Assembly: GCA_014802335.1 (NCBI GenBank)
Contig: JAAVCL010000009.1
Span: 4,620-68,619 of the forward strand
Direction of reading: 5' to 3'
Length of the DNA stretch: 64,000 nt
From: Bacteroides sp.
GTDB taxonomy: Bacteria > Bacteroidota > Bacteroidia > Bacteroidales > Muribaculaceae
The notes under the pieces were generated by a model, which saw only the letters and a list, made by a program, of their open reading frames with translations, did no database searches and was not told the DNA's origin. A program made the translations under genes and the position numbers. Numbering within the stretch: position 1 is the first letter of the stretch; the number at the start of each line of letters is the position of its first letter. Below are positions 6,872 to 37,485 of this stretch, one piece after another.

Positions 6872-7039
6872 ATAATTTGCTAAAAATTGTTTATTTTAAC
6901 ATTACATGTACATTCTTATCTCAATAATTCAGCTGAAAACAGATAATATAATAAATATTAGTTACTTATCCGATTGCATCAGAGTATCTGTACGCGCCGT
7001 GAGACATAAAATAAACATAGGCAATTGATGGGACATTAT

Positions 7040-7099
7040 ACCGGACAAGTGGCACGACGCATTACCGGACGAGTGGCACGACGCATTACCGGACAAGTG
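7040..7099. repeat. 24-bp tandem repeat, 2.5 copies
   Basis: Units at 7040-7063 and 7064-7087, with a partial unit at 7088-7099, start ACCGGACAAGTGGCACGACG and differ by one base (A/G). The CCGGACAAGTG part also occurs between the palindromes just downstream, so this array and the next belong to one repeat family. No coding potential. Confidence 0.85.
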
Positions 7100-7103
7100 T
7101 AGG

Positions 7104-7374
7104 GACGTGGCGTGCCACGTCTGAGGAAACACCGTCGAATTACCCAACTCATTCCTCGCAAAGTTTCCCGTAAGTTATGACCAGACGTGGCACGCCACGT
7201 TCATACACTTGTCCGGTATTGGGACCATGGTTGACCAGACGTGGCACGCCACGTCCCTACATTTGTTCGGTAACGGGTCGATGTTTTTACTCAGACGTGG
7301 CACGCCACGTCCCTACACTCGTCCGGTATTGGGACGATGGTTGACCAGACGTGGCGTGCCCTACAAAGGTTCGA
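7104..7374. repeat. Palindromic repeat array (REP-like family A)
   Basis: Five palindromes of the form GACGTGGCACGCCACGTC lie at 7104-7121, 7184-7201, 7238-7255, 7294-7311 and 7348-7360 (the last lost its right half). Three of them sit in a 54-56-bp tandem unit whose remainder reads GTCCGGTATTGGGACCATGG followed by TTGACCA. Each palindrome can form a 7-bp GC-rich hairpin in RNA or DNA. A degenerate relative is found at 19641-19690. This fills most of the 859-bp gap between the secreted protein and the susF terminator; nothing coding is seen. Confidence 0.85.
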
Positions 7375-23184: not shown

Positions 23185-24354
23185 ATGCGTATTGACTCCA
23201 TCGACATCCTCGATTTCAAAAACATCCCCGAGGCGAAACTTGAATTCTCCCCGGGTGTGAATTGTCTGCTCGGACGCAACGGCATGGGCAAAAGCAATCT
23301 GCTGGAAGCCATACATTTCCTGAGCATGGCCCGGCCTATCCGTCCCATGCCGGAAAGCGCTCTGATACGCCACGGGGCCGACCTCCTCATGGTCAAGGGG
23401 CGATACACGATGGATGCCGGCGAGTCTGAAACCGTTACTTGCGGCATTTCGCGCGAGAAAGGTAAGTCCCTGCGCCGAAATGACAAGGAGTATCAGCGCA
23501 TTTCCGACCATATCGGCCGTTTTCCTATCGTGAGTATCGCCCCGGCCGATTCGGAACTGGTGAACGGTAGCGGCGAAGTGCGCCGACGCCTCATGGATGT
23601 CGTTATCTCGCAGGCCGACAGTTCTTATCTTGCCCTGCTTATCCGTTACAACAAGGCTCTCGAAAGCCGCAACAAAATGCTGCGGGCCGGAATCCGCGAC
23701 CGTCTGCTTTATGAATCGGTGGAAAACACTATGGCCGAGGCCGCCGCTGCCATTCACGCCGGCCGCCGCGACTGGGTGAACGAAATCTCTCCCGATTTTG
23801 CCCGTTACTATTCGCACATTTCGGGAGATGCCGAAAAAGCCTCCCTTAAATATAAAAGTATTCTCTCCGACAAGACCCTGCCCGAAATTTTCGACGAGAA
23901 CCGTGCGCGCGACGCTGCCTTGGGTTTCACCTCGGCGGGCGTGCATCGCGATGACATATCCACCCGGCTCGGCGACTATTCCATGCGCAGGCTCGGCTCG
24001 CAAGGCCAGGTAAAGACCTTCACCATCGCACTCAAGCTCGCCGTTTTCGACTTTCTGCGCCGCCGCGGAGGGATAACCCCCATTCTGCTGCTCGACGACA
24101 TCTTCGACAAGCTTGACACCACGCGCGTGGCACGCATCATCGCCGAGGTGAGCGGCAGCGACAACTTCGGGCAGATCTTCATAACCGACACCAACCGCGA
24201 GCACCTTGACGAAACGCTGCAATCCCTCCGCTCCTCCAGCCGCCTCTTTGAAGTGACCGAAGGCCACTTCAAAGAAATTGCAGAGTGCGGTCTGTGCCCC
24301 GAGCGGCGCGAAGGGGAATCCCCCTCCCCCATTAAAAAACCCGAACCCTCATGA
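23185..24354 (+). CDS. recF: RecF recombination-mediator ATPase with repeat-derived C-terminal tail
   Basis: 389 residues. It loads RecA at gaps together with RecO/RecR. Walker A is GRNGMGKSN (30-38), the signature motif is LGSQGQVKTFTIAL (about 270-283) and Walker B is ILLLDDIFDKLD (about 299-310). The normal RecF end is reached at about residue 365 (EVTEGHFKEI); the last 24 residues, beginning AECGLCPERREG, are encoded by a copy of a dispersed repeat (24291-24316). The stop overlaps the DUF721 start (ATGA, 24351-24354). As in other Bacteroidetes, recF is linked with a DUF721 gene and not with dnaA/dnaN. Confidence 0.93.
   Translation: MRIDSIDILDFKNIPEAKLEFSPGVNCLLGRNGMGKSNLLEAIHFLSMARPIRPMPESALIRHGADLLMVKGRYTMDAGESETVTCGISREKGKSLRRNDKEYQRISDHIGRFPIVSIAPADSELVNGSGEVRRRLMDVVISQADSSYLALLIRYNKALESRNKMLRAGIRDRLLYESVENTMAEAAAAIHAGRRDWVNEISPDFARYYSHISGDAEKASLKYKSILSDKTLPEIFDENRARDAALGFTSAGVHRDDISTRLGDYSMRRLGSQGQVKTFTIALKLAVFDFLRRRGGITPILLLDDIFDKLDTTRVARIIAEVSGSDNFGQIFITDTNREHLDETLQSLRSSSRLFEVTEGHFKEIAECGLCPERREGESPSPIKKPEPS
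24291..24316 (+). repeat. REP-like repeat family B, copy inside recF
   Basis: Core CCCCGAGCGGCGCGAAGGGG preceded by TCTGTG. Identical 25-bp cores occur at 27436-27460, 28275-28299 (reverse), 28513-28537, 29860-29884 (reverse) and 30029-30053. This copy is translated in frame as LCPERREG near the RecF C-terminus. Confidence 0.92.
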
Positions 24355-27435: not shown

Positions 27436-27460
27436 CTGTGCCCCGAGCGGCGCGAAGGGG
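27436..27460 (+). repeat. REP-like repeat family B, intergenic copy
   Basis: Same 25-bp core as in recF, within a longer match to 28506-28537 that begins GCGGGCTTCCC. The downstream GGGGG(A)CGCGAAAAAA is shared with 30049-30065. Lies between ribH and the SlyD-like gene. Confidence 0.92.
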
Positions 27461-28254: not shown

Positions 28255-28338
28255 CGGGAGGCTGCGCGCTCACACCCTTCGCGGCGCTCGGGGCACAGAC
28301 CCCACCCCGCCGCGACGGCCCGAGCGCGCAGCCTCCCG
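28255..28338. repeat. Long composite hairpin carrying a family B repeat (reverse copy 28275-28299)
   Basis: Outer arms, 17 bp and perfect: CGGGAGGCTGCGCGCTC (28255-28271) and GAGCGCGCAGCCTCCCG (28322-28338). Inner perfect arms TCGCGGCG (28279-28286) and CGCCGCGA (28308-28315), then GGGG/CCCC around CACAGA. The repeat forms one side of the inner stem. This is the kind of imperfect long hairpin made by paired REP elements. Confidence 0.85.
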
Positions 28339-28342
28339 CTTT

Positions 28343-28396
28343 CGTCCCTTCCCCCCTTTCCGTCCCTTCCCCCCTTTCCGTCCCTTCCCCCTCTTT
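28343..28396. repeat. 18-bp pyrimidine-rich tandem array
   Basis: Three units of CGTCCCTTCCCCCCTTTC (28343-28360, 28361-28378, 28379-28396 partial). The pyrimidine-only bias goes on to about 28480. The minus strand is all purine with many G runs, so unusual DNA structure is possible. Frames that read through it are low-complexity and not genes. Confidence 0.85.
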
Positions 28397-28512
28397 GCGC
28401 CCCTTCCCCCTCCTTTGGCCTTTTCCCTCGGCCTTTCGCCCTTTTTCCCCCTCCCCTCTTCCCCCTTTGCCCTTTGGGCCCTCTCGGCGTGCGGGCGGCG
28501 GGCGGGCTTCCC

Positions 28513-28537
28513 CTGTGCCCCGAGCGGCGCGAAGGGG
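28513..28537 (+). repeat. REP-like repeat family B, copy next to the RAYT stop
   Basis: 25-bp core identical to the recF copy, 10 bp beyond the 3' end of the transposase gene and opposite in orientation to the copy at 28275-28299. Confidence 0.92.
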
Positions 28538-28546
28538 GGGGGTGCG

Positions 28547-29662
28547 TCAAAGGCGCCGGATGCGCGCCGCGTCGGGGGCCAGAAAATCTGTCTCCGCCAA
28601 AAGCACAGCAAGCTTATTCAGCTCCAAGGCCGTCTCGCGCCTTATTTCCTTCTTTCCCATCGTATAGGGGCGGTCGGTGATAAGCAACAACCGCTTCTCA
28701 CTTATCATGTCGAAGTCCTCTCGCCCCGGCGAAAACTTTTCCGGGAAACCGTTATCACAGATCTTTATCACCAATCCCCCGTTTTCCACCGCATTCTTAC
28801 GCGCTGCATTCTCGTTAGGGTTAATAAACGGCGAGACAAGAACCCCTCCGTCTCTGATACATTCCTCCCAATTTCTACAGTTCGCCAACAGTTGCTCGCG
28901 CGTATATTTCGACGAATACCTAACAACTTCCTTATGCGGATTCTTCAGCAGCATTACGTTGCCGACGGCAATGAAAGTCTTTTCCCCGACGGTTATCTGC
29001 CAGCGATGTCTCAGATATTCAGGAAACATCCGCTTGAACAGCAATCGCCGTGGATTGTCGGTGACATACCGTTTCGCATCTTTCCATCTCTTCTCTGTCA
29101 GTGCGATTGAATCTGTGAAGCCTCGTGAAAAAAACTTCACGGCCTCTATCGGCACAGGCACCGGTCCACTTGCCATAACTTTCCGCCATTCCTGCTCATC
29201 ATATTTTCTGAGGCGCATCATGGATGTCTCCATCAGCTTGTCATACCATTCTCTTCTCGTCACAAGCAATGTGCGGAGGCGCATTGTGGCCTTCCCCATC
29301 AGAACGGACATCATGGTGGAAAAGGCTGTTTTGAGTGGGGCGTTTGTCGAGAAACAGAAGTGAACATGGTCGGGCATAATCACCTGATTGTCGAGGCTGA
29401 TATATGCTTTGTAATAATCTAACCAATCTTTCAATGCCTCTAAAAAACATTCGCCTATAGGCGACAATTTCACCTCCGCTCCCTGACTCACCGAGCCTAA
29501 CACCTGCGAAAGCGGAGGCAACATGGGCGACGCGGAGATCGTGATCATGTATCGGCGGTTGGAACGCTGATAATCGTGATGACGGGAGCGACGCCGGTAT
29601 CGGCGCTCCAGGGCCGAAGCCACGAACGGTGGGTTTTCCCACCAAGGCGAAGAGGAGGGCAT
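28547..29662 (-). CDS. REP-associated tyrosine transposase (RAYT, Y1/IS200 fold) with extra C-terminal domain
   Basis: 371 residues. Residues about 29-215 form a Y1 (HUH) transposase: HHDYQRSNRRYMITI (29-42), the HUH pair in VIMPDHVHFCFS (His99, His101), and FFSRGFTDSIALTEK followed by the helix KRYVTDNPRR with Tyr199 as likely nucleophile. All key residues are present, so it may be active. Residues about 228-355 are extra: GGVLVSPFINPNENAARKN and LVIKICDNGFPEKFSPG recall the DprA/LOG-type Rossmann fold, a tentative call. The N-terminus SPWWENPPFVASALERRYRR is repeated in two decayed fragments nearby. It has no IS200 ends; instead it lies among family B repeats, its likely substrates. Start at 29662 abuts a TTAGG repeat array. 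Confidence 0.82.
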   Translation of the reverse strand: MPSSSPWWENPPFVASALERRYRRRSRHHDYQRSNRRYMITISASPMLPPLSQVLGSVSQGAEVKLSPIGECFLEALKDWLDYYKAYISLDNQVIMPDHVHFCFSTNAPLKTAFSTMMSVLMGKATMRLRTLLVTRREWYDKLMETSMMRLRKYDEQEWRKVMASGPVPVPIEAVKFFSRGFTDSIALTEKRWKDAKRYVTDNPRRLLFKRMFPEYLRHRWQITVGEKTFIAVGNVMLLKNPHKEVVRYSSKYTREQLLANCRNWEECIRDGGVLVSPFINPNENAARKNAVENGGLVIKICDNGFPEKFSPGREDFDMISEKRLLLITDRPYTMGKKEIRRETALELNKLAVLLAETDFLAPDAARIRRL

Positions 29663-29829
29663 TAGGGTTTTAGGGTTTTTGGGTTTTAGGGTTTAGGGTT
29701 TAGGCTTTAGGGGTTAGGGTTTAGGGGTTAGGCGTTAGGCGTTAGGCGTTAGGTTTTAGGGGTTAGGCGTTAGGGTTTAGGGGTTAGGGTTTAGGGGTTA
29801 GGGTTTGGGTTTGGGTTTTAGGGTTTGAG
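29663..29829. repeat. Degenerate TTAGG(G/C) array upstream of the RAYT
   Basis: About 167 bp made almost only of 6-9-bp units such as TTTAGGG, GGTTAGG and GTTAGGC (three GTTAGGC in a row near 29729-29750). It begins at the RAYT start codon and so replaces its leader. Short arrays of the same units lie at 30603-30625 and 46364-46386. Strand bias is strong: G-rich on plus. Confidence 0.9.
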
Positions 29830-29859
29830 GGCGGTTTGGTTGAAGAGGGGAGCCACACA

Positions 29860-29884
29860 CCCTTCGCGGCGCTCGGGGCACAGA
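29860..29884 (-). repeat. REP-like repeat family B, reverse copy
   Basis: 25-bp core, reverse orientation, 31 bp beyond the TTAGG array. Paired with the forward copy at 30029-30053, giving inverted orientation around 144 bp. Confidence 0.92.
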
Positions 29885-30028
29885 CCCAACTCTCACAGCG
29901 TCGGCACGCAAACCCGGCCCGATTTTCCAGCCGCATTCGGATGCCCCTTTTCCGCCGGCATTGCAGCCTTTTGGGGCCGCCCCTTTTCCCCTGCGTTGGG
30001 ATTTGGGGGGCGCCCCGGGAGGTGGGGT

Positions 30029-30053
30029 CTGTGCCCCGAGCGGCGCGAAGGGG
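30029..30053 (+). repeat. REP-like repeat family B, forward copy
   Basis: 25-bp core followed by GGCGCGAAAAAAGGG as at 27474-27488. Lies just after the 3' end of the RAYT fragment at 30074-30166 (which reads on minus). Confidence 0.92.
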
Positions 30054-30073
30054 GGCGCGAAAAAAGGGCGACG

Positions 30074-30166
30074 CTATGGGCGCCGGTAATCATGCCAGGG
30101 CGCACGCCTCAGCATCCGCTTCTCCATCGCCGACAAGGCGAACGGAGGCCTCTCCCACCAATTCAT
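30074..30166 (-). pseudogene. RAYT N-terminal remnant 1
   Basis: A 30-codon minus-strand frame that starts MNWWERPPFALSAMEKRMLR and ends HDYRRP before a stop. It lines up with the RAYT residues 7-31 (WWENPPFVASALERRYRRRS, HHDYQ), including Trp-Trp, NPPF/RPPF and HDY. The rest of the transposase is missing. The remnant shows that another RAYT copy once stood here. Confidence 0.75.
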
Positions 30167-30295
30167 ATCAGTTTCCCTCTTATTTTTGTAAGCATCCCTA
30201 TTAGACATAACGCCATAAAGATACAGAAAAAAGCCGAACCAGCCAAATCCCCTCCCTGCTTCCCTCCTCCCCTGCCTCCCCGCTTCCCCGCCTCC

Positions 30296-30393
30296 CTTGC
30301 TTCTCTGCTTCCCCTTGCTTCTCTGCCTCCCCTTGCTTCTCTGCCTCCCCTTGCTTCTCTGCTTCCCCTTGCTTCTCTGCCTCCCCTTGCTTC
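30296..30393. repeat. 18-bp tandem array, 5.4 copies
   Basis: Contiguous units CTTGCTTCTCTGC(C/T)TCCC at 30296-30313, 30314-30331, 30332-30349, 30350-30367 and 30368-30385, plus a partial unit. Pyrimidine-rich on plus like the array at 28343-28396 and of the same period, but different sequence. No spacers, so not CRISPR. Confidence 0.92.
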
Positions 30394-30549
30394 GCTTCGG
30401 AGAACAGTGGCTAACGCGCTCCCCCGACAGCCAGATCTCCGAGCCATTGGGCTAAAGGCTCAAGCTAAAGAAAGGATGAGAAGAAAGGAGGAGAAGGAGG
30501 GAATGGAGGGGGCAGGGAGCGCGGCCCAACCGTTCCCCGACGCGCAGCG

Positions 30550-30602
30550 AGGGTGTAAGGGCGTTTCCGGGCGGAAGCCACGAACGGGGGGTTTCCCCAC
30601 CG
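30550..30602 (-). pseudogene. RAYT N-terminal remnant 2
   Basis: Minus-strand reading from 30602 gives RWGNPPFVASARKRPYTLAA, matching RAYT residues WENPPFVASALERRY. At DNA level 30573-30601 matches 29615-29643 closely (GAAGCCACGAACGG core). It is preceded on the same strand by a TTAGGC array (30603-30625), the same arrangement as at the intact RAYT. Confidence 0.65.
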
Positions 30603-30625
30603 GGCGTTAGGCGTTAGGCATTAGG
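30603..30625. repeat. Short TTAGGC array next to RAYT remnant 2
   Basis: GCGTTAGGCGTTAGGCATTA plus GGG; the same units as 29663-29829, directly upstream (minus sense) of the second RAYT remnant. Confidence 0.8.
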
Positions 30626-30631
30626 GGGGAC

Positions 30632-30663: not shown

Positions 30664-30704
30664 GTGGGAGTTTGGTTCGATTATGTGGGAGTTTGGTTCG
30701 ATTA
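30663..30704. repeat. 21-bp tandem duplication at the end of the fimbrial operon
   Basis: Two exact units (30663-30683, 30684-30704), core TGGGAGTTTGGTTCGATTA. The second includes the stop codon of the 1179-residue protein, so the duplication adds a second in-line stop region without changing the protein. Confidence 0.9.
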
Positions 30705-33700
30705 TTTTGTGGAGATGGCTACTCGCGTTTGGCCATTGTATTCCCTCCAGAATTCTATCTCGTAGGTCTTGCCTGCGGTTAAGTTCGCTTTAAATGCCTT
30801 AGACTCTGAATTCGCTTTCGCTATCGGACTGTTCGAATTCGGACCGTTCGTCGATATTTCCACATCATCACTGGTACTGTCGGGGCCATATATCGTGCCT
30901 TTGTAAACGAATCGGAAAAATATTTCTCCGGTGGAGGCCGCTGTCACCTTATAAACATATTTGTTATTATCAGTGGTTGTCGTCTTTTCCGCTCCACTCG
31001 TGTTCCAATTGGTAAAACCATTCTCTACACTGCCGAAATCGCCATAAATCTTGCAATCTTCGGTGGTGTTTCCGCCTTGTTCAAGGTTGGTAACGGTTAT
31101 GGTCATCGCGGAGGGGTCGATAACAATATCGTAGGTACCGGCCTTGATGCTGAAGTTGTTAGATTCGGTTTCCATGATCGATATTGTCTTGGTGTTTCCT
31201 GCCGTAACATTAAAGTCCTTCTCGTTGCTGTTGGCAGCGCCGATACATGCCACGCGATTGTTGTCGTTTGTTTCATTGTTGTTTACAGTCGTGCTCTTCT
31301 TGAACTTGCCGACAATGAAGTTTCCTTCCTTGATAGTAACGCTGCGGTATGTCCATTTGCCCGATTCCTCTTTGAGGTAGTAAGTATTATACCTCCAGGC
31401 GTCATCTTGCCAGATAGTACCCTTGATGATGTATTTGTACTCGTCAACAGGATCAGGACCGGGGGTATCGCCATCCACCCAGTTACCGGCCTTTACGTCG
31501 GCCAGTTTCGGTGTAGCGTCCTTATTATACCAACCGCCATTCACGAACTTGGTTCCCTGACGATTCTTCACATCCTCTTCGCTCATGTTCGAATCGGTTC
31601 TTACACCCGAGGTATTGACCGTGTTGAAAATCACGTAGAGACGGTCGGTGTTGTAGCTCATGGTGGGCTCTATCTCAAAGGGATGATAGCGGTTGATATC
31701 GGTATAAACAGCCACTTGTTCACCGGGCCACGTAGTGAGATAGGTCTTCGAGCCGTCACTGTTCAGATAGTAAAGGAACACGTGAGTGTAACCCTTCACG
31801 CTGCAGGTGTATGTTTCCGATTCGGTCTGTGGGTCGTAAGAACCTGCGCAGCAGCGCACCGACGCCTGCGAATTCGAGTAATCGATATTCTGCGAAGTAA
31901 CGTTCATACCCACGAATTGCATGGTCTGATACCATCCGGACGTACCGGCACCGGTTTTGGTGAGGTAATAACCGGAAGAGGCATCCTTACTGAATCCACC
32001 ATCCACAAGTATACGATTCTGGGGGAAATAGCTGTTGATACGCTTCACCTGTCCATCCTCGAGAGCCTGGAAAGAATATGTAGGCGCAATGTAGGTTACG
32101 TGAGCCGGCTCGGTGGCGAGACGATTCTGTGAGAATCCCGACGAAACGGTCATCGAACGCATCTGAGCGTAAGAGGGCACACCCCAGCCGTCGGGGCAAG
32201 CGGCGCGGGCCTCCGAAAGATTATACATCTCGCCCATCGCATTCTCGCCCACAATGGGCCAAGCGGTTGAAGTGAGCACGCCCGTAGAAGTGCGCACACC
32301 CATACCGGCACTCATCGCGCCAAGGTTGCGGTCCAACCAATAAAGGTCGCGTTCGCCCTGCTGCATTACTTCATAATAAAACCACTCGCCATGCAGATTG
32401 TGGAAGAAGCCGGTGTGATAGAGGTCGAGAGTATAAACCACTTCACCCTTCTTGATCTCGATATAATCAGATTTAGTGGCGTAAGAATACTTACTTGTTC
32501 CACCCACACCCGAGGGCACGTCAGTATCATTGAAAGTATAGGTAGTTTCCGAAATGGTGGCGCCGTTCTTTGCCGTGAGGGTATAGACGTAAGTCACGCC
32601 GCCGTTAGGCATCGGCATGTGGAGACCGAGATTACGCACGCGGCCGCCATTCTCGTCGGGTTGCAAACCATAACACTTCTCGGTTGTGGAAGCATCCGGC
32701 TTAATGAATTTCAGATAATCGTTGATGGTATGCAGAACTGTAGAACCCTTTTTGATCTGGAGCCTTATGCTCACCACCGACGAATAGTCAAGATTATCGT
32801 TAGCCTTCTGATAGACCACGAAGTCGCGTTCAAGCTTTGTTCCGTTCAGCTTCACAGTGTAAACCAGAGCACGGTCAGAACCCTCGTTAACATTAGCCTT
32901 AAGCGTGCCTGTCACTTTCGAAGTGAAGAGGCCGTTGTCTGATTCGACGGTTCCGGTGATGTTCTGTGCGGGCCAGGATGCATAATTTTCCATACCCGTG
33001 AACCACGTAGCCGCTGCACGATCCTTTGGCTCGATCGTAAAGGCTGGAGCTGAACTTCCGGCCTTTCTTGCCTTGATGATCAGATTCTGGGTGAGGCCGG
33101 CACCGGAAGCATCAAACTTCACGGTGTCTACCACGGCAAGCACATTCTCGCCGTCAGAGATAATATTATGAATACCGGGTTCGGCATCTTCAAATTCCAC
33201 CGAGAGTCCGCCGGGGTTAGCCTCGGCCTCGGCAGGAGTTTCACGACCTTCCGTTTCGCAACCATTGATTTTAATATTCCACCAGCGGTTGGCCTCGCAG
33301 TCGGGCAGCGGAATGGCATAGTAACACGGCGATTCATATTTCGGCTCATCCTTTGTGCCTTGATTGAAATAACCGCGCACCATCATCATAATCTTACCGT
33401 TATTTGCGGCGGTTTTGCTCACCTGATAAGGATAAGTGGCGGTCATGATCTTCTCCCCTTTCTTGGCATACTTGAAAGAGGGCGAAGTCCATGTGAGTCC
33501 GTCGGCCGGAGCAATCCAGCCCTCGGTGGCGCTGACAGCAGCGGTGCCAACCGTGCTCGATTTCTCAGCAGCAAGGCTTCCCGATTCCACCGTGCGGCTC
33601 AGACGCGCACCGGTCATCACAAACATAAGGTCACCGCTGATCTCAACCGAAATGCGAGAATAAATTCTCTTAAGTTCGAATACCTCGGCAGCTGTCTGGT

Positions 33701-34241
33701 TTTCTACCACATCTGTTATGTTGCGGATTGCAGTCATAACATGCGCACTTTCGCCATTCAGCTGATCGGGGCCATACACGGCGCCGTCGTTCGAAGACTT
33801 GCCATATTTTATACCGCTAAGGAAATCAGCCTTGCTGACGTCACCGGTATGATTTCTTACAAAAGAAGAAATCTCAGTTTTAGCATTTGCAACGAGCAAC
33901 CAGTCGCCTTCGGTCACCTCTCTTTTCTTCATTCTGATAGAGCCGGGGGTATCGCCCGAGGGGGCGGTGCAATTATCGTCACCGGGAGTGAAATAGAGGG
34001 GTGATTCCCACAGATTACCATCCTTGAAAATCACGAGAGTCAGGTTACTCACCTTGTCGCGCGTGGCATCGTCAGCCCGAGTTGCATTGAGCACTTCCAT
34101 CTGCATGCCCGAGTTGGTGAAGGCGATTAGATATTCATCCTCCTCAACCTTCACGCCATCCCAGTGAAAATCGTCGGAGCAACCGCCGAGGGCGAGCAGC
34201 AACAGAAGAGAAAACAGTATTTTGATATGCTTTTTCATCAT
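30702..34241 (-). CDS. Giant fimbrial tip-type lipoprotein with FISUMP and glycan-binding-like modules
   Basis: 1179 residues. Lipobox LGGC (Cys21). The N-terminal 350 residues are fimbrillin-like, with TRAD at 54-57 as likely protease site. About 630-790 is a FISUMP-type domain (YWLDRNLGAMSAGMG; CPDGWGVPSYAQM). About 805-910 resembles starch-binding module 26 (HVFLYYLNSDGSKTY, TTWPGEQV, YVIFNTV). About 935-1045 and 1060-1179 are SusE/F-like beta-sandwiches (GTIWQDDAWRYNTYYLKE; IYGDFGSVENGFTNW). Last gene of the Mfa-type operon, where tip adhesins are usually encoded. Expected on the cell surface at the fimbrial tip; probable ligand a glycan, by inference from the modules. Confidence 0.75.
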   Translation of the reverse strand: MMKKHIKILFSLLLLLALGGCSDDFHWDGVKVEEDEYLIAFTNSGMQMEVLNATRADDATRDKVSNLTLVIFKDGNLWESPLYFTPGDDNCTAPSGDTPGSIRMKKREVTEGDWLLVANAKTEISSFVRNHTGDVSKADFLSGIKYGKSSNDGAVYGPDQLNGESAHVMTAIRNITDVVENQTAAEVFELKRIYSRISVEISGDLMFVMTGARLSRTVESGSLAAEKSSTVGTAAVSATEGWIAPADGLTWTSPSFKYAKKGEKIMTATYPYQVSKTAANNGKIMMMVRGYFNQGTKDEPKYESPCYYAIPLPDCEANRWWNIKINGCETEGRETPAEAEANPGGLSVEFEDAEPGIHNIISDGENVLAVVDTVKFDASGAGLTQNLIIKARKAGSSAPAFTIEPKDRAAATWFTGMENYASWPAQNITGTVESDNGLFTSKVTGTLKANVNEGSDRALVYTVKLNGTKLERDFVVYQKANDNLDYSSVVSIRLQIKKGSTVLHTINDYLKFIKPDASTTEKCYGLQPDENGGRVRNLGLHMPMPNGGVTYVYTLTAKNGATISETTYTFNDTDVPSGVGGTSKYSYATKSDYIEIKKGEVVYTLDLYHTGFFHNLHGEWFYYEVMQQGERDLYWLDRNLGAMSAGMGVRTSTGVLTSTAWPIVGENAMGEMYNLSEARAACPDGWGVPSYAQMRSMTVSSGFSQNRLATEPAHVTYIAPTYSFQALEDGQVKRINSYFPQNRILVDGGFSKDASSGYYLTKTGAGTSGWYQTMQFVGMNVTSQNIDYSNSQASVRCCAGSYDPQTESETYTCSVKGYTHVFLYYLNSDGSKTYLTTWPGEQVAVYTDINRYHPFEIEPTMSYNTDRLYVIFNTVNTSGVRTDSNMSEEDVKNRQGTKFVNGGWYNKDATPKLADVKAGNWVDGDTPGPDPVDEYKYIIKGTIWQDDAWRYNTYYLKEESGKWTYRSVTIKEGNFIVGKFKKSTTVNNNETNDNNRVACIGAANSNEKDFNVTAGNTKTISIMETESNNFSIKAGTYDIVIDPSAMTITVTNLEQGGNTTEDCKIYGDFGSVENGFTNWNTSGAEKTTTTDNNKYVYKVTAASTGEIFFRFVYKGTIYGPDSTSDDVEISTNGPNSNSPIAKANSESKAFKANLTAGKTYEIEFWREYNGQTRVAISTK

Positions 34242-34257
34242 TATAACTAATTCTTAA

Positions 34258-37200
34258 TTAGTACCAAATCTGATAATATTCCAGATTTCCATAGGAACTG
34301 AATTGCGCAGGTTTAGATTGGTCCTTACGATATTTGTTGTCTTTCCACAACATCTCATGCGTACCACCATCTCCTTTCCATTGAATTCCTCCTTGATTGG
34401 CAGAAACCATCTGATTAAAATTGGCTATATCAGCGGAAGTTTCAAGAACCACTATATACCATTCATTATTAACCTTAGTGCCGGTTTTAACCGACCAATC
34501 ACTATTAGGATAGAAATTAGTCCAATTACCATTATTTTCTATCTGATAGAATAGAATACCACTGCTATCAGTTGTTCCGGTGTGCCAGTAAAGCGCAACC
34601 CCTTTAGATTCGGGTGCTTCAAGGCCACTGGCATCGACGGTGTAGATATTGTTTGAACCGTATCTTTCCTGAATGCCCAGGGTAGTTTCCTTCTTGAATC
34701 GGGTCTTATCCTGAATGTCAATCTGACTGCTGTCATCGTAGAAGATTACACCGTCTAAGCTTGACACGGTACCTGTAATCGGATATTGCCAGTAGTAATA
34801 GTCGCCGTCTTCCTGACGGGTAGCTTTATGTTCGCTATATTCACCAAACCACTTTCTGCCACCCGTCCAAGTGTAACAGTAAGTCTTCGCAGCATTGATC
34901 TCAGACTTCTTGACACGAATCACGAGTGAATTTACCGGTTGTTCCTCAACTTCATATTCTTCGCGACGGTCGTCAGAGAACGAACAGTTATCACCACCTA
35001 TCTTCTGGTCTAACAAGAACCATGCTTCCTTGTCGGTATAGTTAGGAATAAGGATACCGGGCTGTGCATATTCGGGGTAGCGGGCATTCGGATTCGTGGT
35101 GTGTCCGTTTGTGAACATTACAAGAGCTTGGCCGGGTTTTACAATCAGAGGTAGTTCTATCTTCCACCAGCCGTTCTCCTCCTCGGTCATACCGATTCCG
35201 GGCCAAAGATACCCATTTTTACCGGGGTGACTTCCGGATTTACAACTACCGCAAGTTGATTGGGTGTAGTCCACAAGCTGTACTTTCATATACTTTTCAT
35301 CCGGGAGGTCCTCTCCGGGATTACCCCAGTCCGTTCCTACACTGTATCCGGTAACGTCTTCACCACCGAATGTAATCGATGTTGTATTTCCGGTTATATT
35401 ATCTATTGAACCTCCATCCTTTTTCCAGCCTTTGAAAGCCCGGTTTCCGGTGAAGTCGTATTCAAGCCAGTTAATGTTGTTACTTCCCGAGGATCCGAAC
35501 ACCGGCAGACCCTTGTAATAAAGGGGCTGATATACATAGATGTGGGGAGAATTCCAGGGAGTGCCATTTATAGCCTTGAAGTGGATTGTATAGACCGACG
35601 GGTTGGGCACAATCTCCAGCTCGGCTTTCTTTGATTCGACTCCTGATGCCGAGGCCGAGAATGTCGCATCTATTTCTTTTGAGAAACAAGACACGTCGGT
35701 CGGATCGACCAAAGTGACCTTTATGAAACCTGAATTGGGGAACGATCTGTTACCTTCTTTCAGATAAGATGTGTTAAAAAGGTTGTTAGGCACCGAAGTG
35801 TTTAAGGCTTTGATGTCAATTCTGTTGGTGATCGCAGTCGAGTCGGATGCGCAGATCTCGATATAGATACCCTTTGAATTGGTTTGATCGTAACCTTTTT
35901 GGGTATTCTCGTTGTTATAGGCCGACATCATAAGTTTCAGATTATCGGCGTTGGTCGAATAGTCGAACCAGAGAGAATAATCGGGCTCGTTCACGATGTT
36001 GGCAATCGAAAGCGAACGATATGAAGGGAGCAGACGGAGATAAGGGGTAAGGTCAACCTCTTTCACGGCCACCCACTTGCGGATATTACCTGCAATCACC
36101 CAGAAACCCATGTCATCGCCGGTGAGATGATCCTGACGCAGCGGGAGGTCGGGATTCACATTAACAATGAGTACACCGTTTGCTCTGTCTTCAGTAACCT
36201 TGAAGAGGGGAAGTTCGGAAGTCATCGAACCATACTTCACCTTCGAAGACTCGAAAGTGAGGCTCGGAGCATCCGTTGCGTATTCCACTTCCACAGGCTC
36301 GTCACCATCCACCAGGTTAATTTCAGTTTTAGCCACGTAAAGATTACTGATACCGGCCAGCTGCACAGCAAGGTCTTTCGCGTTCCACGAAACGACTCTC
36401 CAGCTGTATTCCACCTCGCCGTTATCGGCCACCATGGCCACCACGTCATAGAAATGGCCACGCTGAATATCGCCGCTCACGTTCTCGTCGTGGTTGCTCG
36501 CCGGGTCGCCACAGCCGAATTTCACAACCTTCGGGTCTCCTTTGGGAGTATGAAGCTGCAGTTTAGTTGTATTATCCTCATTTTTTTTCACACACTCGGG
36601 CACATACATAGTGGCCTGCCAGGCAAAGCTTGTCCAGCCGCCTGAACCTGACTTTACGGTCGTGAACCCGTTGAGAGGGTCATTGGTCAGATCCTCGCGT
36701 ATTGCGGTCCAATAAGACAATGGCTCTGCGGCCTGCGCGGCCGAAAGCTCATAATGTGTTCCTGTAAAGCCTGTATAATCCTTAGCACTCCCCTTCATTG
36801 AGCCGGCATTGAACACTTCTGAAGGAGTGTAAGCCTTCAACACGTCAACATTGTTGATCTTAAAGGGGGTTTTATCGCCGAAGGCATTGTTGTAAATCAC
36901 GGTGAGGCGCACCTTGGCGCAAACAAACTCCAGATTTGCCACCACCTGTTTCTCCTGACCATCCTTCACCTCGGCGCTGATGCTCTTGGCCATAGGGAGG
37001 CCATTGGCAGCCACCGGGAGATTCTGGCCATATTCATACAGCAGAGCCTTGACATCATCTTCGAGTCCGGCAACTGTTTCACTCTTTTCGAGATTCGTCT
37101 TCAAATCACCTTCAACCGGGATGTTGGCAAGCACATAAAGAGTATAATCGGCAGGAACAACCTGCAATTTGTAACTGCGGTAAACGTCTTCCACCTCGGT

Positions 37201-37485
37201 CGACATATCCTCGGTGAGTTCGGCAAAGAAATGCTTCTTAGTTCCCCCCTCGGTATAGAAACCGGCCACGGCAAGTTGCTTGATCGCACCCTCTTCGGCC
37301 GCCACCTCGCCATGTTGGTCTGAGCTTTCGGCACGTGTGTTCTCACGCGCCATCTCGGTGGAAGGGATAAGCAGATTGATTGTGGTGCGACCGTCGGCCC
37401 CGGGCAGGGAGAACGGCTCATCGCTACAAGCGGTGAGCAGCAGCGAGCACACAGTTATGAAAAAAAACAGAAATTTACGTATCAT
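34258..37485 (-). CDS. Giant fimbrillin-type lipoprotein with four starch-binding-like modules
   Basis: 1075 residues. Lipobox LTAC (Cys20), TRAE at 50-53 as likely processing site, and a fimbrillin-like N-terminal half (VVPADYTLYVLANIP; CAKVRLTVIYNNAFG; about 30-400). The C-terminal 440 residues hold four aromatic-rich modules at about 630-700, 730-830, 850-955 and 965-1075, each with patterns of CBM25/26 type: IYVYQPLYYKGLPVF, YLWPGIGMTEEENGWWKIEL, YCYTWTGGRKWFGEY, ILFYQIENNGNWTNFY. CGSC and other Cys in module 2 may form a disulphide. 16 bp upstream of the 1179-residue gene. Proposed role: accessory tip subunit that binds alpha-glucan or similar glycan. Confidence 0.75.
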   Translation of the reverse strand: MIRKFLFFFITVCSLLLTACSDEPFSLPGADGRTTINLLIPSTEMARENTRAESSDQHGEVAAEEGAIKQLAVAGFYTEGGTKKHFFAELTEDMSTEVEDVYRSYKLQVVPADYTLYVLANIPVEGDLKTNLEKSETVAGLEDDVKALLYEYGQNLPVAANGLPMAKSISAEVKDGQEKQVVANLEFVCAKVRLTVIYNNAFGDKTPFKINNVDVLKAYTPSEVFNAGSMKGSAKDYTGFTGTHYELSAAQAAEPLSYWTAIREDLTNDPLNGFTTVKSGSGGWTSFAWQATMYVPECVKKNEDNTTKLQLHTPKGDPKVVKFGCGDPASNHDENVSGDIQRGHFYDVVAMVADNGEVEYSWRVVSWNAKDLAVQLAGISNLYVAKTEINLVDGDEPVEVEYATDAPSLTFESSKVKYGSMTSELPLFKVTEDRANGVLIVNVNPDLPLRQDHLTGDDMGFWVIAGNIRKWVAVKEVDLTPYLRLLPSYRSLSIANIVNEPDYSLWFDYSTNADNLKLMMSAYNNENTQKGYDQTNSKGIYIEICASDSTAITNRIDIKALNTSVPNNLFNTSYLKEGNRSFPNSGFIKVTLVDPTDVSCFSKEIDATFSASASGVESKKAELEIVPNPSVYTIHFKAINGTPWNSPHIYVYQPLYYKGLPVFGSSGSNNINWLEYDFTGNRAFKGWKKDGGSIDNITGNTTSITFGGEDVTGYSVGTDWGNPGEDLPDEKYMKVQLVDYTQSTCGSCKSGSHPGKNGYLWPGIGMTEEENGWWKIELPLIVKPGQALVMFTNGHTTNPNARYPEYAQPGILIPNYTDKEAWFLLDQKIGGDNCSFSDDRREEYEVEEQPVNSLVIRVKKSEINAAKTYCYTWTGGRKWFGEYSEHKATRQEDGDYYYWQYPITGTVSSLDGVIFYDDSSQIDIQDKTRFKKETTLGIQERYGSNNIYTVDASGLEAPESKGVALYWHTGTTDSSGILFYQIENNGNWTNFYPNSDWSVKTGTKVNNEWYIVVLETSADIANFNQMVSANQGGIQWKGDGGTHEMLWKDNKYRKDQSKPAQFSSYGNLEYYQIWY

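Follow-up and report, generated by a model that had tools for sequence, protein, structure and literature searches.

The spread of repetitive extragenic palindromic (REP) elements is described as poorly understood (PMC8266576), and the 2018 survey of TnpA-Y1 transposases by Quentin et al. (PMC6006769) sets the REP-bearing subclasses apart from those with large C-terminal domains. The repeats of subclass 2.6 and of class 3 lack the canonical GT[AG]G (PMC6006769). The locus described here comprises a REP-associated tyrosine transposase (RAYT) gene and its repeats, and lies in a 64,000-nucleotide stretch (contig JAAVCL010000009.1, positions 4,620–68,619; hereafter the window) of a metagenome-assembled genome (MAG) of Bacteroides sp., family Muribaculaceae (GCA_014802335.1; 2.09 Mb, 30 contigs, 83.6% complete). 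It is a variant of the known RAYT/REP systems: a real RAYT with an atypical REP family of its own, within a RAYT clade that carries a DprA-like domain. Unlike the division drawn in the survey, this clade has both REPs and a large C-terminal domain.

An earlier sequence-only reading had reported an intact, likely working RAYT, and the frame was found again without an internal stop. Like TnpA-REP enzymes it combines an HUH motif with a Y1 fold that carries one catalytic tyrosine, and the MPDHxH and Y199xxxNP motifs are kept in all 65 aligned RAYT rows, which supports the claim of a likely working enzyme; judged by its sequence, the gene is likely a working RAYT with its own REP-like family. By tblastn it is the single full-length gene in its 83.6%-complete genome (one 100% match), the remaining matches being paralogues (26–45% identical over the matched pieces) or a relic. 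The repeat family is therefore accompanied by one full-length gene and not by multiple gene copies.

The RAYT is bracketed by four copies of the repeat, two per orientation as first described, forming two inverted pairs. The window holds six matches (none in 100 shuffles) and the genome holds 18 copies on eight contigs (≤3 mismatches; six on C9, four on C12, two each on C10 and C14, and one each on C17, C20, C21 and C26), so that, as with TnpA-REP, the flanking repeat is also dispersed. The copies at 24292 and 27436 and the 12 elsewhere in the genome had been overlooked. Alignment of the 18 copies gives a unit of ~30 bp, about GGnGTCTGTGCCCCGAGCGnCGCGAAGGGG, with a conserved foot GTCTGTG; the sequence around the unit otherwise differs. 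At ≤2 mismatches the repeat is present in only one of 101 genomes, its own, and in none of the 100 others (60 congeners plus a further 40 from the order), and is thus not equally common in genomes without this RAYT. A longer pattern at ≤3 mismatches, searched in 111 genomes of the genus (its own, the same 60 congeners and 50 more), returns the 18 own copies and one three-mismatch match in G105. Of the 60 congeners without the repeat, 49 carry other RAYT homologues (E≤0.001; ~27–45% identity over matched segments).

Several other RAYTs have flanking repeats too, which were read off their loci as repeated words; for four RAYTs (the window's and those of G006, G010 and G046) the repeats were counted genome-wide. 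The G006 RAYT is the sister of the window clade (support 99/93 in a 53-row maximum-likelihood tree) and is flanked by CTGYGCCCCGAMGCGCCGCGAGGGG, plainly similar to the window repeat. Across 61 genomes this sequence occurs 10 times in G006 and once, with three mismatches, in G026; the remaining 59 lack it. G006 is also the closest searched genome by recF (77%), so these sequences are most simply read as enzyme and repeat having descended together and co-diverged. The G046 RAYT has a distinct repeat (20 copies; none in four other genomes). The nearest RAYT relatives, at 49–54% identity, are encoded on four metagenome contigs or contig pieces of under 3 kb, one protein being counted for each of the four matches. 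Cluster P0001, 99% identical, has 13 members and points to further MAGs of this species. The proposal that copy number follows the RAYT draws on its own genome and on the sister case in G006, the other tested genomes lacking a close orthologue. A non-simple 12-mer common to both 400-bp flanks was found at 16 of 37 RAYT loci and at none of 29 recF loci (42 RAYT loci were loaded and five with <150 bp of flank dropped); near-identical species are included (for example G052/G102 and G056/G134), so the loci are not all independent. With 11-mers and 600 bp the control climbs too (21/37 RAYT and 8/29 recF loci).

The C-terminal part of the enzyme, missed by the first reading, is predicted with high confidence to have a DprA-type fold: in the predicted model, residues 219–357 adopt the DprA Rossmann fold. 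By this model its RAYT clade, present in gut Bacteroidales and in some Kiritimatiellae and Lentisphaerae, is one in which Y1 and DprA-type Rossmann domains are fused. Sequence support for the domain is weak: a profile search of the PDB with hmmsearch retrieves SpDprA (E 0.0049) and HpDprA (E 0.098–0.11), and Pfam DNA_processg_A matches two of the 65 RAYT rows (best E 0.011). The hhalign score against a narrow DprA profile (25 Muribaculaceae-like proteins) was 22.95, whereas 60 column shuffles reached at most 20.5 and the profile in reverse 19.5. A targeted literature search, outside whose coverage most subscription journals lay, returned no paper combining a RAYT or HUH transposase with DprA, and neither PADLOC models nor PHROGs gave a match at E≤0.1.

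Several observations pull the other way. The enzyme scores 22.9 bits against NCBIfam REP_Tyr_transpos (cut-off 80) and 16.1 against Pfam Y1_Tnp (gathering score 23). In the PDB profile search the unrelated PdxJ (E 0.021) ranks between the DprA matches, and Pfam PdxJ likewise matches two of the 65 RAYT rows; the hhalign comparison with Muribaculaceae DprA has a probability of 1–3% in the wrong register, and was dropped as sequence proof of kinship, being non-significant and out of register. The first-strand S-R pair of the domain, with its arginine in 45 of the 65 relatives, is S-S in the window enzyme. The repeat consensus has no GTAG foot, and a single repeat folds no better than shuffled sequence (−3.3 kcal/mol, z +1.1), for which reason the single-repeat hairpin was dropped as the recognised structure; among the four families folded, only that of G010 clearly beats shuffles (z −2.3; G006 −1.0, G046 −0.7). 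The G010 repeat, a third type, has three copies, all local (none in 60 other genomes), and 21/37 RAYT loci lack a shared flanking 12-mer, so the association of RAYT and repeat is common, not universal. No movement was observed.

The single repeat is predicted to fold as CCCC/GGGG with a short inner stem, and strong folding is confined to the 84-bp composite. For the latter, folding as DNA bore out the perfect 17-bp outer stem noted at first (−39.7 kcal/mol, z −8.5, equalled by 0 of 200 shuffles).

Taken together, these data make it quite probable that the locus is REPtron-like, with a Y1 RAYT, inverted pairs of its cognate repeat, repeats spread in trans and a DprA-type fusion. From its anatomy and published RAYT biochemistry (PMC8266576), the expected substrate of the enzyme is the repeat in the form of a folded single strand; as this repeat forms a weak hairpin and has no GTAG, recognition must differ. 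Y199 would cut the single-stranded repeat beside the conserved GTCTGTG foot, probably while the lagging-strand template is exposed. The Rossmann domain of Helicobacter pylori DprA alone suffices to bind single-stranded DNA (PMC4489622) and DprA aids RecA nucleation (PMC12386762), so the fused domain may hold the freed strand and might deliver it to RecA, which would join it elsewhere. The full version of this scheme, in which Y1 excises the single-stranded repeat, its protection and the loading of RecA fall to the DprA-like domain, and joining is RecA-dependent with no second transposase step, is a tentative proposal that may well prove wrong. The presence of a DprA-like domain in the RAYT chain suggests RecA loading as a partner pathway and makes the question of REP spread testable; if true, a RecA-loading RAYT would answer how REPs are re-inserted. 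The enzyme–repeat pairs of this gut lineage, at least one of them co-diverging, would be useful for studying the evolution of recognition.

Three other explanations bear on the same evidence. The RAYT–DprA protein could be domesticated and process host single-stranded DNA in repair, competence or defence, the repeats being by-products or old relics. The diverged family with homologues in 49 of 60 congeners, the predicted DprA fold and the sufficiency of the H. pylori Rossmann domain for binding (PMC4489622) fit this, but the repeat family is specific to its enzyme and co-divergent with it, a separate DprA is encoded in the same genome and the PADLOC models are silent, which together leave domestication unlikely. 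Alternatively, the repeat could be a host element (a terminator, a protein-binding site or a DNA-uptake-type signal) among whose copies the RAYT merely sits. The weak hairpin and the location of 12 of the 18 copies on contigs other than the RAYT's would agree with this; against it stand the two inverted pairs around the gene, the absence of the repeat from 100 other genomes (with a lone three-mismatch match in 110 congeners), the related repeat flanking the sister RAYT and the different repeats flanking several other RAYTs of the genus, and a host element is improbable. An IS200/IS605-like insertion sequence moving as a unit between repeat ends, suggested by the inverted repeats on both sides of a Y1 gene, is very improbable, as 14 of the 18 repeats lie away from this gene, which has one full-length copy in the MAG and otherwise only 26–45% paralogues or a relic instead of the near-identical copies of a gene moving with its ends.

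The two relics beside the RAYT and a truncated paralogue on contig C2 are probably decayed duplicates. Both N-terminal remnants claimed at first are real, with alignment scores to the RAYT N-terminus above 2000 shuffles each (relic 1, 99 against a best shuffle of 48; relic 2, 62 against 46). Relic 1 reads MNWWERPPFALSAMEKRMLRRAPWHDYRRP and then stops, its end lies ~22 bp from a repeat copy, and tblastn against its own genome lists it at E 1.4e-6; relic 2 is absent from that list at E≤1. At the DNA level the alignment of relic 2 continues past the start codon and reaches the array upstream of it (36 against a maximum of 15 in 300 shuffles), and that of relic 1 is weaker (21 against 16). The C2 paralogue ends right after NPRRLMIKRMLPQLGFKF, at the junction of the Y1 and DprA-like domains, and a paralogue on C3 is full length (304 amino acids). 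That the 5′ end of the gene is the part that stays is partly supported, since all three truncated copies seen in the genome retain it, a sample of three. The 3′ end of the truncated C2 frame (L022, 1339–2055) continues into a heptamer-like stretch. Palindromic sequence flanks this paralogue and has relatives at window positions 7039–7355 (best 61 bp, 92%), where tandem palindromic repeats make up another REP-like family of this MAG.

All three kinds of tandem array described at first were located. Ten of the 61 genus genomes, the window's own included, contain heptamer arrays, and the other nine (among them G024, which matches the reversed control pattern too) lack the window repeat; the arrays were accordingly dropped as part of the repeat system. 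The view of the locus as mainly a site of repeated local duplication is not supported, because the repeat is spread over eight contigs and the heptamer arrays occur in nine congeners without it. Telomere-like TTAGGnn arrays give 31 pattern matches at eight places in its own genome (contigs C2, C6, C9, C10, C12 and C27), three of these places lying ~60 bp or less from a repeat copy and two 340–390 bp from the C2 RAYT; counts in other genomes are 72 (G027), 81 (G051), 119 (G017) and 152 (G021).

The neighbouring genes are presumably recF, ribE, a thioesterase gene and kdsD from the look of their proteins. Possible traces of movement are seen at the recF-like gene and at a SlyD-like gene. The repeat within the recF-like gene adds ~20 residues (LCPERREGESPSPIKKPEPS, window 24292–24354) that are absent from 29 congener proteins (29 loci returned from 54 other genomes with a match). 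All 29 end at aligned residues 362–372, plus 0–11 amino acids, so the repeat sits at a former gene end and lengthens the protein. The SlyD-like gene, so labelled from matches to Pfam FKBP_C and to NCBIfam that fall below cut-off, is near ribE in 4 of 12 congener stretches and is directed against recF in all four; in the window it has the same direction as recF and lies between inverted copies at 27436 (+) and 28276 (−), and an inversion between repeat copies is possible. No RAYT was found at this place in the 12 stretches, several of which are short. On the other side of the island, two large minus-strand proteins (window 30702–37485) adjoin it, one with a Fib_succ_major match below cut-off and the other with FimA above cut-off and CBM26 below.

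Table 1. Features of the RAYT locus and its surroundings (window coordinates).
Feature	Coordinates	Strand	Remarks
RAYT–DprA fusion gene	28547..29662	minus	371 aa, intact frame without internal stop
N-terminal HUH-Y1 (TnpA-REP-like) domain	29027..29662	minus	residues 1–212; HUH H99/H101, tyrosine Y199
C-terminal DprA-like Rossmann domain	28592..29008	minus	residues 219–357; predicted fold, weak sequence support
REP-like repeat core	24292..24314	plus	in 3′ end of recF-like gene, codons from residue 370 of 389
REP-like repeat core	27436..27458	plus	between ribE-like and SlyD-like genes
REP-like repeat core	28276..28298	minus	3′ side of RAYT; within 84-bp composite hairpin
REP-like repeat core	28513..28535	plus	3′ side of RAYT; inverted partner of 28276
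REP-like repeat core	29861..29883	minus	5′ side of RAYT
REP-like repeat core	30029..30051	plus	5′ side of RAYT, just past broken end of relic 1
84-bp composite hairpin	28255..28338		holds the 28276 repeat; by eye a possible doublet, second copy degenerate
18-mer C/T-rich tandem array	28335..28410
Heptamer array, TTAGGGT type	29662..29831		directly upstream of RAYT start codon
Relic 1, RAYT N-terminus	30074..30166	minus	30 codons and stop
18-mer tandem array CTGCCTCCCCTTGCTTCT	30272..30393
Relic 2, RAYT N-terminus	30550..30602	minus	DNA similarity 30539–30626, including start codon and array junction

Among described systems, the DprA Rossmann domain (PDB 4ljk, 3uqz) and ShosA (8zva) share with residues 219–357 the predicted fold and the order of its elements, at 11–18% identity over aligned residues; unlike them, the window domain is fused to Y1 and lacks a SAM or DML1 domain. 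No subclass among the 11 rows of Table 1 of the TnpA-Y1 survey, compared by eye, combines DHVH, YxxDNP and a ~150-residue tail (PMC6006769). Subclass 2.3, from Chromatiales and Alteromonadales, shares the long enzyme (median 325 amino acids) and has two C-terminal tail domains, but differs in NHYH, YVDLNP, a 61-residue distal tail domain and, as described there, the lack of REPs (PMC6006769). Subclass 2.6 shares the Bacteroidetes host and atypical, weakly structured repeats without GT[AG]G that have copies elsewhere in the genome; its enzymes have a median of 179 amino acids with NH[LIV]H and YIH[QN]NP, against 371 amino acids, DHVH and YVTDNP in the window RAYT (PMC6006769). Relative to the TnpA-REP REPtron, the window enzyme has an extra ~150-residue DprA-like domain, and its repeat lacks the GTAG foot, forms a weak single hairpin and has 18 copies, where REPs usually number more than 100 (PMC2817692). 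Shared with Escherichia coli TnpA-REP (PDB 4er8) and its REPtron are the HUH-Y1 fold, the YxxxNP tyrosine motif, one full-length gene per family, the flanking inverted pairs and the dispersed copies, including one in a gene end.
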